NCBI RefSeq assembly: GCF_003171675.1
Contig: NZ_QFZQ01000002.1
Coordinates: forward strand, 186,001 to 250,000
Origin: Reichenbachiella versicolor
Lineage (GTDB): Bacteria > Bacteroidota > Bacteroidia > Cytophagales > Cyclobacteriaceae
DNA: 64,000 bases
Reading direction: 5' to 3'
Shown here in pieces: positions 46,450-51,016 of this stretch. Each line of letters begins with the position of its first letter. Position 1 is the stretch's first letter. The notes beneath the pieces were generated by a model that worked only from the letters and a program-made list of their open reading frames with translations, ran no database searches and was not told the DNA's origin. The position numbers and the translations under genes were made by a program.

Positions 46450-46469
46450 TACAAACAAAGATTTTGAAG

Positions 46470-47126
46470 ATGCTGAGTCTCGCAGAAGAGAATTATCTCA
46501 AAACCATATATCACCTATCAGAATCTGGTCGACATGCTGTATCAACCAATGCTATTTCTGAAATGCAGAAAACAAAACCTGCATCTGTAAGTGATATGAT
46601 TAAAAAGCTGAGTGACAAGGGTGTCGTATCGTATCAAAAATACAAGGGAGTCAACCTCAGTCATAAAGGCAAAAAAGCTGCTCTTCAAATCATAAGAAAA
46701 CATAGATTATGGGAAGTATTTCTTGTTGACAAACTCAATTTTAATTGGGATGAAGTTCATGAAATAGCCGAACAACTCGAACACATCAAATCTCCACTAC
46801 TTGTAAAACGACTTGACGAGTTTCTTGGCTATCCTAAAATTGACCCTCATGGTGACCCCATTCCTGATGAAAATGGAGAGATTACTTTAGGTATTAAGGC
46901 ACCATTGACCGAAGTTAGTCAAGGAAAAGAAATGATCCTTACAGGCGTAGAAAACTCAGAATCCAACTTTCTTGCGCACTTAGACAAACTTGGAATAGCG
47001 CTAGGTTCTAAAATTACAATTATCGATATCAATGAATTCGATGGCTCCATGCAAGTCAAGATAAAAGAAGGTAAACCAATATTTATATCTCAGCAGGTTG
47101 CTGTCAACTTATTAGTCACAGAATAA
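46470..47126 (+). CDS. mntR: DtxR/MntR family metal-dependent regulator
   Basis: A 218-residue three-domain regulator. I use the ATG at 46470 (MLSLAEENYLKTIYHLSES); a TTG two codons upstream is ignored. The winged helix spans about 1-65, then the metal-binding dimerisation region (KHRLWEVFL, VHEIAEQLEHIKSPLLVKRL) with the usual His/Glu ligands, and from about 150 an SH3-like FeoA-type domain (VNLLV end). The regulator senses Mn or Fe and represses uptake genes. It leads the ABC operon: the next ATG follows its stop without a gap. The palindrome upstream suggests autoregulation. Mn versus Fe cannot be decided. Confidence 0.9.
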   Translation: MLSLAEENYLKTIYHLSESGRHAVSTNAISEMQKTKPASVSDMIKKLSDKGVVSYQKYKGVNLSHKGKKAALQIIRKHRLWEVFLVDKLNFNWDEVHEIAEQLEHIKSPLLVKRLDEFLGYPKIDPHGDPIPDENGEITLGIKAPLTEVSQGKEMILTGVENSESNFLAHLDKLGIALGSKITIIDINEFDGSMQVKIKEGKPIFISQQVAVNLLVTE

Positions 47127-48038
47127 ATGAAAAACATTTTACTATACACAGCGATAACCATTTTTGCTTTGAGTTGTCAACCTGTTCAAAAAGAAAGGCA
47201 AGGAAAACTCAAAGTAATTACTACTACTGGTATGATCTACGATGCTGTACTCAACATCGGTGGCAACTTAGTAGAAGCAGAAGCTCTAATGGGCCCAGGT
47301 GTTGACCCACACCTTTATAAAGCTACTCAAGGAGATTTAGCCAAGCTTCAAAACGCTGATTTGATTCTTTACAATGGACTTCATCTGGAAGGCAAAATGG
47401 GAGAAATATTTGAAAAGTTATCTAGGATCAAAAACGTTCATGCTATTTCTGAAGACATTGACAGGTCTAAATTAAGAGCCAGTCAAGTCTATGAGAATGC
47501 TTATGATCCTCATATCTGGTTTGATGTAAAGCTATGGAAAGAAGCAGTTGTGTTTACAACAAAAACTCTTAGCAAATCAGATAGTATAAACGCAAAAATA
47601 TATCAGGCTAACTCTTCAGCTTATCTTAAAAAACTTGACTCATTACATGGTGCCACTATCAGTGCTATTGACTCAATCCCAGAACCTCAAAGACTTCTTA
47701 TTACTGCTCATGATGCCTTTGGTTATTTTGGAGATGCTTATAAGATTAGAGTAGAAGGTCTTCAAGGTATATCGACTTTATCAGAGCCCGGCCTCAAAGA
47801 CATTACAAAACTGGTTGACTTGATTGTTGATAATAAAGTAAAAGCAGTTTTCATAGAAACATCAGTATCTAAGAAAGCTATCAATGCTGTCGTTGAAGGA
47901 TGTAAGGATCGAGGACATGATGTTATCATCGGTGGAAGTTTATACTCTGATGCTATGGGATCATTTGGACAATTCGAAGGTACTTATATTGGTATGGTCA
48001 GTAGCAACGTCAACACTATTGTAAACGCATTGAAATGA
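47127..48038 (+). CDS. troA: Metal ABC transporter substrate-binding lipoprotein (TroA-like)
   Basis: A 303-residue cluster A-I binding protein. A lipoprotein signal (TIFALSCQPV, Cys near 17) is followed by KVITTTGMIYDAV. The four TroA ligands are visible: His in GVDPHLYKAT, His in YDPHIWFDV, His in TAHDAFGYF, and Asp in GGSLYSDAMG. There is no His-rich loop, which speaks against a dedicated ZnuA and for Mn, Fe or mixed uptake. Its stop overlaps the ATPase start by 4 bp. Confidence 0.93.
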   Translation: MKNILLYTAITIFALSCQPVQKERQGKLKVITTTGMIYDAVLNIGGNLVEAEALMGPGVDPHLYKATQGDLAKLQNADLILYNGLHLEGKMGEIFEKLSRIKNVHAISEDIDRSKLRASQVYENAYDPHIWFDVKLWKEAVVFTTKTLSKSDSINAKIYQANSSAYLKKLDSLHGATISAIDSIPEPQRLLITAHDAFGYFGDAYKIRVEGLQGISTLSEPGLKDITKLVDLIVDNKVKAVFIETSVSKKAINAVVEGCKDRGHDVIIGGSLYSDAMGSFGQFEGTYIGMVSSNVNTIVNALK

Positions 48039-48826
48039 TAGTAAACGTCGAAAATCCTGTATTAGAAATTCATGATCTTACGGTCACCTACAGTCGAAAA
48101 CCAGTACTTTGGGGTGTGGATCTAACATTACCAAAAGGTTCACTAGTAGGAATCATTGGACCAAACGGAGCAGGCAAGTCTACTTTAATCAAAGCAGCTA
48201 TGGATTTGATCCCGAAGAGTAGTGGCTGGGTTGAAATATTTGGCGAAGATCTTAAAAAGGTTAGAAAGAAAATTAGCTATGTACCTCAACGGGAATCTGT
48301 AGACTGGGACTTTCCTGCATCAGTACGAGATGTAGTTGTTATGGGACGATATGCAGACATTGGACTTTTTAAGAGACCTAGAAAAGCGGACTATGAGGCT
48401 GCTGATTACGCTTTGAAACAGGTAAAACTTTCAGAGTTTTCTAATAGGCAAATTAGTCAGTTGTCAGGAGGGCAGCAACAGCGAGTCTTCTTAGCTAGAG
48501 CACTTGCACAACAGGCAGACCTTTACTTCATGGATGAACCTTTCGCTGGAGTAGATGCAGCTACTGAGAAAGCTATTATTAATATACTAAAACAGATGTC
48601 TGAACAAGGTAAGACCGTGGTGGTAGTTCACCATGATTTGCAGACTGTAACTAAATATTTCGACTGGTTAGTTCAACTCAACACTCGTTTAGTAGCTTCT
48701 GGACCTATTGAGCAAGTATTTACTCAAGAATTACTTCAAGAGACCTATGGAGGAAAGCTAACACTGCTATCTGATGTCAGTACATTGATGCACACTCAGC
48801 AATTGCCAGTAAGAGACAAAACCTGA
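48035..48826 (+). CDS. troB: Metal ABC transporter ATP-binding protein
   Basis: A 263-residue ABC ATPase of the Mn/Zn importer family: Walker A IIGPNGAGKSTLIKAAMDL, Q-loop region YVPQRESVDWDFPASVRDVV (the WDFP pattern is typical for Mn/Zn importers), signature QLSGGQQQRVFLARAL, Walker B LYFMDEPFAGVD, and the switch His in VVHHDL. It energises the two permeases that follow. Translationally coupled to the binding-protein gene. Confidence 0.96.
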   Translation: MIVNVENPVLEIHDLTVTYSRKPVLWGVDLTLPKGSLVGIIGPNGAGKSTLIKAAMDLIPKSSGWVEIFGEDLKKVRKKISYVPQRESVDWDFPASVRDVVVMGRYADIGLFKRPRKADYEAADYALKQVKLSEFSNRQISQLSGGQQQRVFLARALAQQADLYFMDEPFAGVDAATEKAIINILKQMSEQGKTVVVVHHDLQTVTKYFDWLVQLNTRLVASGPIEQVFTQELLQETYGGKLTLLSDVSTLMHTQQLPVRDKT

Positions 48827-48827
48827 T

Positions 48828-50129
48828 ATGGAAGACTTTATTACTTTTTTTAGTTTTCAAGATCCGAATATCCGATATGTAGTAGCTGGATCAATATTGA
48901 TAGCTGTTAGTTCTGCAATAGTAGGTTGCTTTACTTTTCTTAAAAAGAAGGCTTTAGTTGGTGATGCAGTTGCTCACTCTGTACTTCCTGGAATTTGCCT
49001 CTCATTCATTTTAACTGGAACCAAAAACCCTATTTACATCATCATTGGTGCGTTTGTTACTGGCTGGATTTCGCTCATTCTTATTGACTACATCACACGG
49101 TTTTCTAAGATTAAAGAAGATACTGCTATTGGGTTGATATTGTCCGTCTTCTTTGGAATCGGGGTCTTATTATTAACCATGATACAGCACAATGGTAATG
49201 CCTCTCAAACTGGACTTGATTCTTTTCTTTTTGGAAAAGCTGCTGCTTTGGTTGGATATGACCTATTGATTTTCAGCATTATCAGTATCATTCTATTGTT
49301 AGCAGTGATTCTTTTTTTCAAAGAGTTTACTCTTATTTCATTTGATGAAAATTTTGCAAAATCCATTGGATTCCCAGTGAAGCGGTTAGAATTAGTACTA
49401 ACAACATTAACTGTTTTAGCTGTAGTTACTGGCATTCAAGCTGTAGGTGTAGTTTTAATGGCAGCTATGTTAATCACTCCCTCAGCGGCAGCTAAATTCT
49501 GGACAAACAAGTTGAACATAATGCTAATATTAGCAGCAGTGTTCGCAGCATTTTCTAGTATTAGTGGTGCATTTATATCATTCACTTCTCCTTCTATGCC
49601 TACTGGACCATGGATAGTCATGGTAATTTCTATTATCGCTTTGACTTCTTTCTTTTTTGCTCCTAGACATGGCATTCTGTACAACATCATCAAACAAAGA
49701 AGTATCAAAAAGAGAATTCTTCATGAGAATATTCTTAAGCTTTTTTATCAACTCGGTGAAAGAGAAAATGATTTCAATGCGAGTAGATCTATTGACAATA
49801 TTTTAGAAAAGAGAACCATAAAACTAGGAGCCCTAAAACCTGGACTTCGCCATTTAACAAAACAAGGGTTTCTCAGTAAAAACAAGAATTTCTGGACTCT
49901 GACTACGGAAGGAAAAACTAAAGGACAGCGAATAGTGAAACTACACAGACTTTGGGAAGTCTATTTAACCAAGTATTTAAGGATAGCACCAGATCATGTT
50001 CACGAAGACGCAGACAACATAGAACATTTTCTAACTCCCGAACTTGAAAAAAGATTGGAAAATTTATTGAACTACCCAGAAAGCGACCCTCATTCCTCAG
50101 CTATACCATATGACCAAATAACTTCATAA
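48828..50129 (+). CDS. troC: Metal ABC permease fused to a DtxR-like repressor domain (YtgCR type)
   Basis: A 433-residue chimera. Residues 1-280 are an ABC-3 permease with about eight transmembrane helices (VGDAVAHSVLPGICLSFIL, TAIGLILSVFFGIGVLLL, VVLMAAMLITPSAAAKFW). From about 295 to the end comes a soluble DtxR/MntR-like part: a winged helix (LKLFYQLGERENDF, LRHLTKQGFLSKNKNFWTLT) and the metal-binding dimerisation helix (VKLHRLWEVYL, HVHEDADNIEHFLTPELEKRL), ending in YPESDPHSSAIP. It lacks the SH3-like third domain. The same fusion is known from Chlamydia YtgCR, in which the repressor is cut free. In this window a separate full-length regulator is present as well. One base overlaps the next permease gene. 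Confidence 0.92.
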   Translation: MEDFITFFSFQDPNIRYVVAGSILIAVSSAIVGCFTFLKKKALVGDAVAHSVLPGICLSFILTGTKNPIYIIIGAFVTGWISLILIDYITRFSKIKEDTAIGLILSVFFGIGVLLLTMIQHNGNASQTGLDSFLFGKAAALVGYDLLIFSIISIILLLAVILFFKEFTLISFDENFAKSIGFPVKRLELVLTTLTVLAVVTGIQAVGVVLMAAMLITPSAAAKFWTNKLNIMLILAAVFAAFSSISGAFISFTSPSMPTGPWIVMVISIIALTSFFFAPRHGILYNIIKQRSIKKRILHENILKLFYQLGERENDFNASRSIDNILEKRTIKLGALKPGLRHLTKQGFLSKNKNFWTLTTEGKTKGQRIVKLHRLWEVYLTKYLRIAPDHVHEDADNIEHFLTPELEKRLENLLNYPESDPHSSAIPYDQITS

Positions 50130-51016
50130 TGGACACATTATATATCATATCGACTGGTGCAATAGTAGCGATTACCTGTGGAGTTTTGGGTTGCTACCTA
50201 ATCCTCAAGAAAATGGCTATGGTAGGTGATGCTATTTCTCATGCTGTTTTGCCAGGTATAGTCATAGCATTTTTACTTAGCGGAAGTAGAGATTCTGTAA
50301 CTATGCTCTTAGGAGCAGGTATACTAGGTGTTCTTACGACTTTTTTAATTGAATTTTTTCATACTAAAGGAAGTCTTCAATCTGATGCTTCGATCGGAGT
50401 GACATTCACATGGCTGTTTGCTCTAGGGGTGATCTTAATTTCAATGTACGCAGGAGACGTAGACTTGGACCAAGATTGTGTCCTTCATGGCGAAATAGCT
50501 TATGTCCCACTTGACCTTTGGATTCTCCCAAATGGTTCAATCATGGGTCCTCGAACACTTTATATTAGCGGTTTTGTATTAATACTAGTTTTATTATTTG
50601 TAATTATCGGATACAAAGAACTTTACATTACTACTTTCGATCCAGCTTTTGCATCTGCAATAGGAATATCTACAGTGCTTTGGCATTACCTTCTAATGGG
50701 CGCAGTAAGTTTGACAACGGTAGCTTCATTCGAATCGGTAGGGGCTATTTTAGTAGTATCATTATTAATTGCACCTCCTGCAACAGCATACTTACTAACA
50801 GAAAACTTCAAAAAAATGTTATGGCTAACCGCTTTCACAGGGATGCTTGTATCTATCTTGGGTTATTATCTAGCTGTATGGATCGATGGATCTATTGCAG
50901 GAGCCATGTCTAGCGTTGCTGGACTTTTTTTCCTATTGGCTCTTATTTTTTCTCCAAGTGAAGGAATAATTGCAAAAAAATTGCGCCAGCAAAAACTTCA
51001 ACCTAATAATTCCTAA
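50129..51016 (+). CDS. troD: Metal ABC transporter permease, second subunit
   Basis: A 295-residue ABC-3 permease with about eight transmembrane helices: YLILKKMAMVGDAISHAVLPG, LLGAGILGVLTTFLIEF, ASIGVTFTWLFALGVILI, and VGAILVVSLLIAPPATAYLL. It pairs with the fused permease upstream to form the channel of the importer. It has no regulator tail and ends after the last helix (LIFSPSEGIIAKKLRQQK). Its ATG overlaps the last base of the upstream stop. Confidence 0.95.
   Translation: MDTLYIISTGAIVAITCGVLGCYLILKKMAMVGDAISHAVLPGIVIAFLLSGSRDSVTMLLGAGILGVLTTFLIEFFHTKGSLQSDASIGVTFTWLFALGVILISMYAGDVDLDQDCVLHGEIAYVPLDLWILPNGSIMGPRTLYISGFVLILVLLFVIIGYKELYITTFDPAFASAIGISTVLWHYLLMGAVSLTTVASFESVGAILVVSLLIAPPATAYLLTENFKKMLWLTAFTGMLVSILGYYLAVWIDGSIAGAMSSVAGLFFLLALIFSPSEGIIAKKLRQQKLQPNNS

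Follow-up and report, generated by a model that had tools for sequence, protein, structure and literature searches.

The window analysed here (the whole 64,000-nucleotide stretch of Reichenbachiella versicolor DNA) encodes a metal importer in which one of the two permeases ends in a DtxR-type tail. Judging from sequence, fused tails of this kind have lost the DNA-recognition features of a DtxR-type regulator whilst keeping its metal-ligand positions. We lean slightly towards the reading that the regulator domain has been repurposed as a cytosolic metal sensor that gates the importer.

Anatomy of the fused permease

The fused protein is encoded by an intact ORF of 433 aa with zero internal stops (Table 1). 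Pfam placed an ABC-3 permease at residues 12-277 (231.5 bits) and the metal-binding/dimerisation domain Fe_dep_repr_C (PF02742) at residues 359-427 (82.4 bits against a cut-off of 27). The DtxR DNA-binding model PF01325 gave no match to the winged helix of the tail, and Pfam found no SH3/FeoA domain in the 433-aa protein. An AlphaFold model of the monomer, built from 24 sequences (mean pLDDT 85.7), and Foldseek together gave the tail a DtxR/MntR fold, a winged helix followed by the metal domain. The best-ranked Foldseek match of the tail was 8pw0, DR2539 bound to DNA, and in the Foldseek alignments the tail shared 31% identity with the Mn regulators DR2539 and SloR. The permease part paired with PsaC (7kyp) at 36% identity and a TM of 0.92 on the target. 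Pfam and AlphaFold thus bear out the anatomy claimed in the first-pass annotation, namely an ABC-3 permease followed by a winged helix and a metal domain that ends without an SH3 domain.

The same annotation had allowed for a frame or assembly error between permease and tail. This is ruled out by the intact ORF and by recurrence in relatives, as matches extending to query residue 427 or beyond were found in 33 of 59 genomes with our own included (32 of 58 relatives).

Operon, free regulator and putative operator

The genes of the operon run in the order regulator, binding protein, ATPase, fused permease, second permease. With a TroA/PsaA-like binding protein, an ABC ATPase and ABC-3 permeases carrying the GDxxxH motif, the importer is of the PsaBC/TroABC type. 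The best NCBIfam models for the ATPase were Mn and Mn/Fe importer ATPases, with scores below their cut-offs.

The stand-alone regulator heading the operon is a complete three-domain member of its family (PF01325, PF02742 and FeoA by Pfam) with a canonical recognition motif. We prefer the ATG at 46470 as its start over the TTG at 46464 because relatives align from MLSxAEENYL. PF02742 is found in both the regulator and the fused tail. The first-pass annotation was therefore right to place a three-domain regulator at the head of the operon and two metal sensors within it. The palindrome, too, is present where that annotation had put it. The core of the putative operator box, TTTAGATNNATCTAAA, has one exact match in the 5.25-Mb genome, ahead of this operon. 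In 7 same-genus loci the box, with 0-2 mismatches, begins 48-54 bases 5' of the regulator.

Table 1. Features of the importer operon in the window, in window coordinates.
Feature	Position	Strand	Basis or detail
Palindrome TTTTAGATTGATCTAAAA	46418-46435		
Putative operator box TTTAGATTGATCTAAA	46419-46434		box starts 51 bases 5' of regulator ATG
Stand-alone MntR/DtxR-type regulator: HTH, metal/dimer, FeoA/SH3-like	46470-47126	+	PF01325, PF02742, PF04023
TroA/PsaA-kind metal-binding lipoprotein	47127-48038	+	Pfam ZnuA 244 bits; best solved relative TroA, E 2e-77
Importer ABC ATPase	48035-48826	+	Pfam ABC_tran
Fused permease with DtxR-type tail (the finding)	48828-50129	+	ORF, Pfam, AlphaFold, Foldseek
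Permease domain, residues 1-277, motif GDAVAHSVLPG (D46, H50)	48828-49658	+	Pfam ABC-3, Foldseek
Continuous helix, residues 283-313: linker and winged-helix helix 1, ligand position N301	49674-49766	+	AlphaFold, constant linker length
Degenerate HTH and wing, residues 320-358	49785-49901	+	low conservation against free regulator; PF01325 0/24
Metal-binding/dimerisation domain, residues 359-427, ligand positions H373, E377, H392, D396, E399, H400	49902-50108	+	PF02742, ligand census
Second permease, tail-less	50129-51016	+	Pfam ABC-3; P clade member

Two further observations concern free regulators. A second stand-alone DtxR-type regulator in the source genome (L004, G000 contig 10) adjoins, on the opposite strand, an apparent TonB-dependent receptor, which was named by eye. 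In L134 the box variant TTTAGGCTTGCCTAAA lies 5' of a regulator whose recognition helix reads PASVTNM and not PASVSDM; to judge by this locus, a change in the one may accompany a change in the other.

The metal site is kept in the fused tails

Fused tails (53) and free regulators (47) were aligned. Winged-helix-only, tail-less and cut tails were left out of the 53, and ORFs longer than 330 aa were left out of the free set. The permease motif GDxxxHxxLPG is present in all 53 fused proteins, and so are the ligand positions H, E, H, D/E, E and H of the tail. We take these columns to be those of DtxR His79, Glu83, His98, 102 (always acidic), Glu105 and His106, and N301 to be position 10, where N was found in 44 tails, D in 6 and H in 3. 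A second set came from named-genome contigs. Its 46 tails that were the sole one aligned per locus gave H, E, H, then E (38), D (7) or H (1), then E and H. The two sets, of 53 and 62, overlap: L154 and L128, both from contigs of 902020 bases, look identical.

Identity of the metal segment among eight same-genus genomes (28 pairs) was 0.98 for fused tails against 0.96 for free regulators. Across the 37 genomes whose fetched locus encodes both the fused and the free protein it was 0.72 fused and 0.77 free. Within the genus, identity along the fused protein was 0.85 in the permease, 0.66 in the linker, 0.50 in the HTH, 0.44 in the wing and 0.87 in the metal domain. The first-pass annotation had also reckoned with a tail lacking metal-binding residues, and none of the 53 is of that kind. 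The drifting HTH, the tail-less second permease of the window and the shortened tails of other lineages would suit a vestige, or an appendage that stabilises the fold and plays no part in sensing. We consider this very improbable, however, given a metal domain as conserved within the genus as the permease itself and ligands intact in every tail of the 53.

DNA-recognition features are lost

The recognition helix of free regulators is almost fixed (PASVSDMIKKL in the window's own), whereas that of the fused tails keeps mainly its buried leucine-type positions. The buried HTH leucine L343 is present in 53/53 tails, and the fold thus seems to be kept while the DNA face drifts. In an alignment-free search the recognition motif was absent from all 53 fused proteins and present in 47 of 47 free regulators, the latter count being partly so by construction, as the free regulators had supplied the motif. 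In the second, partly overlapping set it was found in 0/62 fused and 14/19 free proteins. The motif was loosened between the first and final counts; its stricter first form matched 46/47 and 12/19 free regulators and, again, no fused protein. PF01325 at E 0.01 served as an independent test and matched 0/24 and 0/10 fused proteins but 23/23 free ones.

Conservation follows the same pattern. Over the 28 pairs from the eight same-genus genomes, recognition-helix identity was 0.52 in fused tails against 0.98 in free regulators, and at the surface positions of this helix it was 0.30 against 0.97. For the whole recognition helix the values over the wider set of 37 genomes were 0.31 and 0.70. The winged helix of the fused tails is also the more basic, with a mean net charge of 4.7 against 2.9 in free regulators (7 against 4 in the window's own pair), and may make unspecific contact with nucleic acid or lipid.

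The operator goes with the free regulator

We counted a box at no more than 2 mismatches to either of two forms in the 250 bases 5' of importer genes; the second form was added after the upstream regions had been looked at. L069, at a contig edge, was dropped from the table, and G041 was scored as positive for a free DtxR on a 48-bit match. A box was present in 34/37 genomes whose fetched locus includes the regulator (the other three carry the regulator without a box), in 6/10 with a DtxR elsewhere and in 0/5 with none. Fisher tests gave 0.0003 overall and 0.044 for DtxR elsewhere against none. Shuffled single regions contained a box in 0.8% of cases, with up to four regions per genome. In whole-genome searches the exact box was found in 6/10 of the genomes searched that have a free DtxR and in 1/5 of those without (G055, away from the fused gene). 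The promoter may have been missed in the five genomes because in their fetched loci the fused gene is separate from the rest of the importer. The operator box thus appears to go with the free regulator, in what is a small test with five genomes lacking a free DtxR. We also considered whether the fused tail takes the regulator's place in genomes for which searches gave no free DtxR. This candidate role was rejected, as the recognition motif is absent in L051, L058, L067, L142 and L144 and there is no box near.

The first-pass annotation had suggested that the tail might bind operator DNA, as a tethered repressor or a membrane-held decoy. This part of it finds no support: the recognition helix and wing of the tail drift even within the genus, whilst the operator and the recognition helix of the free regulator are conserved, and no box was found near the fused gene in the five genomes where the fused copy is the sole DtxR domain. 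The same findings count against a tail that is cut off and then, in soluble form, represses the importer operon in a metal-dependent manner. Such a repressor would follow Chlamydia YtgCR, for which parts of PMC7755916 and PMC5599777 report cleavage and DNA binding of the repressor part. As the first-pass annotation had noted, the likeness extends to gene and domain order, and this is borne out by the description of the Chlamydia trachomatis system in part of PMC5599777: binding protein, ATPase, permease with a C-terminal DtxR-like domain, permease (ytgABCD). Metal ligands are said to be conserved there (PMC7755916 and PMC5599777, in part) and are kept here, and the winged helix here is basic. 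The differences concern DNA. In our operon a canonical free regulator is already present, its gene preceding the four importer genes together with an operator, which is unlike YtgCR as described in those parts. The tail here is also without DtxR DNA-recognition features, YtgCR being likened by its description and not by YtgR sequence. A flexible cleavable tether is also made slightly less likely by the linker, which is helical and of constant length. We therefore regard release of a repressor as unlikely in this group.

A tail that has lost its DNA face could still act on transcription by using its dimerisation domain to capture the free regulator and hold it at the membrane, so that the abundance or state of the importer sets the free amount. 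That PF02742 is found in two proteins of one operon would allow such heterodimers, and the arrangement suits the coupling idea of the first-pass annotation. Yet five genomes in which searches turned up no free DtxR still have the tail, ligand positions included, which disfavours a trap as the general role, and in eight genomes both permeases are tailed, so that the tails could pair mutually. We give this explanation little credence.

A metal-gated importer as the favoured model

In the AlphaFold model residues 283-313 form a single helix that leads on from the last membrane helix and includes helix 1 of the winged helix (pLDDT 84-89 in 10-residue blocks). The E300-N301 pair starts 18 residues past a conserved Gly in 50/53 fused proteins. 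In two of the other three the spacing is the same by eye, the pattern having taken an earlier Gly, and L143 is without the Gly. The linker is basic, with a mean charge of +4.6.

On the gating model the tail would be a DtxR/MntR-type metal-sensing module moved from transcription into the importer, where, facing the cytosol, it would bind the metal that is imported. Mn2+ or Fe2+ is the most likely metal, with Zn2+ possible, because the ligand set is MntR-like and the binding protein TroA/PsaA-like. Since the long helix joins the last membrane helix to the helix of N301, metal binding would move or stiffen it and so slow the permease. The outcome would be transinhibition, a fast protein-level brake on import, inhibition being the presumed sign of the effect. 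The stand-alone regulator would provide slow transcriptional control through the box. We infer that the tail binds metal in the cell and that this changes transport. The coupling to transport raised in the first-pass annotation is thus kept as one option, in the shape of a metal-gated importer, and it is the option we narrowly favour. Points that weigh against it are the more basic winged helix of the fused tails, the lineages in which a winged helix is all that remains, the DNA binding reported for YtgR and the small size of the operator test.

The transinhibition sensors of MetNI and ModABC have other folds and sit on the ATPase. Here, unlike in those importers, the domain sits on the permease, and transinhibition is proposed by analogy. 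Transporters that carry sensor domains are well established, examples being MetNI, ModABC, CorA and YiiP in PMC10710835, the main text of which does not mention DtxR. According to the same review, cytosolic metal domains raise the activity of some CDF exporters. The tail here might instead be a metal acceptor, taking the ion at the channel exit and handing it on, which would speed release and apply no brake. The kept ligand positions and the direct helical join to the permease would serve an acceptor too, but the ligands of the tail match those of a family of sensors, and we rate an acceptor role as improbable.

Comparison with known proteins

With regulators such as MntR, SloR, ScaR and DtxR the tail shares the winged helix, the metal/dimer domain and the ligand positions. 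It differs from them in being tethered to the membrane and in having no SH3 domain, no PF01325 match and no recognition motif. With the Mn importers PsaBC and MntBC the fused protein shares the permease fold and the GDxxxH motif. In PsaBC, a homodimer, Asp46 and His50 coordinate Mn (PMC11779740, in part), and from the motif D46 and H50 here would be their equivalents. PsaC chains, by contrast, are 258-290 residues long, tail-less and homodimeric, whereas here there are two different permeases, one of them tailed.

The fusion architecture as such is already known. Permease-repressor fusions occur in 11 phyla according to Thompson et al., as stated in part of PMC5599777, and are read there, after YtgCR, as transcription regulators awaiting release. 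Our searches of the open-licence PMC literature turned up no paper describing a DNA-blind tail gated by metal. Perhaps new are the great age of the fusion, the existence of forms with two tails or with a winged helix only, the association of the operator with the free regulator, and the loss of the DNA face set against the kept metal site. If the gating model is true, metal importers of a large and ancient group directly sense what they carry, and the label 'iron-dependent repressor' misleads when applied to the tail. Protein-level switch-off of metal ABC importers also becomes a testable question.

Spread and history of the fusion

The first-pass annotation had proposed a search for the fusion across Bacteroidota. 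Of 296 genomes searched, 52 matched at E 1e-40 and 23 of these carry the full tail. In 27/52 both permease matches stop after the winged helix; of the remaining two, G274 is cut at a contig end and the match in G280 ends at the permease. Sequences of the winged-helix-only group were read for 20 of the 27 genomes, plus two other loci. Because these 27 genomes keep the winged helix only, it must do something without the DtxR metal site, which the gating model leaves unexplained. In L107-L126, L064 and L065 both importer permeases end in a winged helix without a DtxR metal domain. Many F tails of the winged-helix-only importers have an HPH motif and many P tails HLxxHLxW-like histidines, which are perhaps other metal sites, to go by the motifs.

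Beyond Bacteroidota and its groups, the best 80 of 588 confirmed stretches in a named-genome scan held tailed permeases in Planctomycetota, Poribacteria, Latescibacterota, Sumerlaeota, Verrucomicrobiales/Limisphaerales and Omnitrophota. The Firmicutes, Chloroflexi and actinobacterial (L212) matches among those 80 have untailed permeases, L212 with a separate, adjoining DtxR gene, and no Chlamydiota record was among them. Among the 12 plasmid records listed out of 70, one, from Halomonas, had a long partial match (query 3-379). A Planctomycetota-centred survey matched in 49/119 genomes. Of the 30 loci sampled from it, in which L250 is the L196 locus again, 22 had a second permease ORF in the stretch, each with at least 81 residues past the permease.

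In a midpoint-rooted tree of 235 permease domains, made by a quick method, the operon's two permeases split into an F clade (94 rows) and a P clade (79 rows), each with support of 99. Both clades hold tailed proteins, and from the same phyla; the fusion is thus most simply older than the permease duplication, and the window's second permease would have lost its tail. The tailed L130 and L147 were placed beside untailed rows, and the tail may have had a second origin there.

Both permeases can be tailed. In 8/15 searched genomes, from Poribacteria, Planctomycetota, Latescibacterota and Omnitrophota, two permease-length ORFs scored above the PF02742 cut-off, and two tails could consequently pair inside one transporter. 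The two tails differ. In 6/8 of the dual-tailed genomes the first matches only about the first 56-58 of the 70 PF02742 profile positions, and in 6/8 aligned dual-tailed loci Asp replaces the His98 ligand in the first tail. L182 and L224 are outside these eight aligned loci, their first tails having been dropped from the 62 set by the length rule. Tentatively, and as a history we hold with some doubt, an ancestral permease may have captured a regulator domain before the duplication. The domain would then have lost DNA recognition and become a built-in metal gate across Bacteroidota, Planctomycetota, Verrucomicrobiota, Latescibacterota, Omnitrophota, Poribacteria and Sumerlaeota. Dual-tailed pairs would form an asymmetric DtxR-like sensor, and the released-repressor reading of YtgCR would be either an exception or due a second look.

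Other arrangements were seen in related loci. Many Saprospiraceae-type permease tails (L127-L129, L148-L171) are long enough for all three DtxR domains, with 24 rows full by length, and Pfam confirmed FeoA in 2/10 members of set A2. L127-L129 have no further importer gene in the fetched locus. In L066 (4427-6214) the binding protein and ATPase are seemingly fused in one 596-aa ORF that adjoins a tailed permease.

A further protein type, found in 8/146 genomes of the order, joins a DtxR-like metal domain to FeoA directly beside FeoB (L070, 3651-4679; L071, 2488-3507; L264-L270). The FeoB motif was found in 10/11 of the loci checked, L266-L270 fail the metal-ligand expression, and L070 and L071 have an N-terminal membrane helix by eye. 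Like the fused tail, the proteins of L070, L071, L264 and L265 have the ligand motif and no canonical recognition helix, and are encoded next to a metal importer. They differ from it as separate proteins with FeoA that stand beside a transporter of another family.
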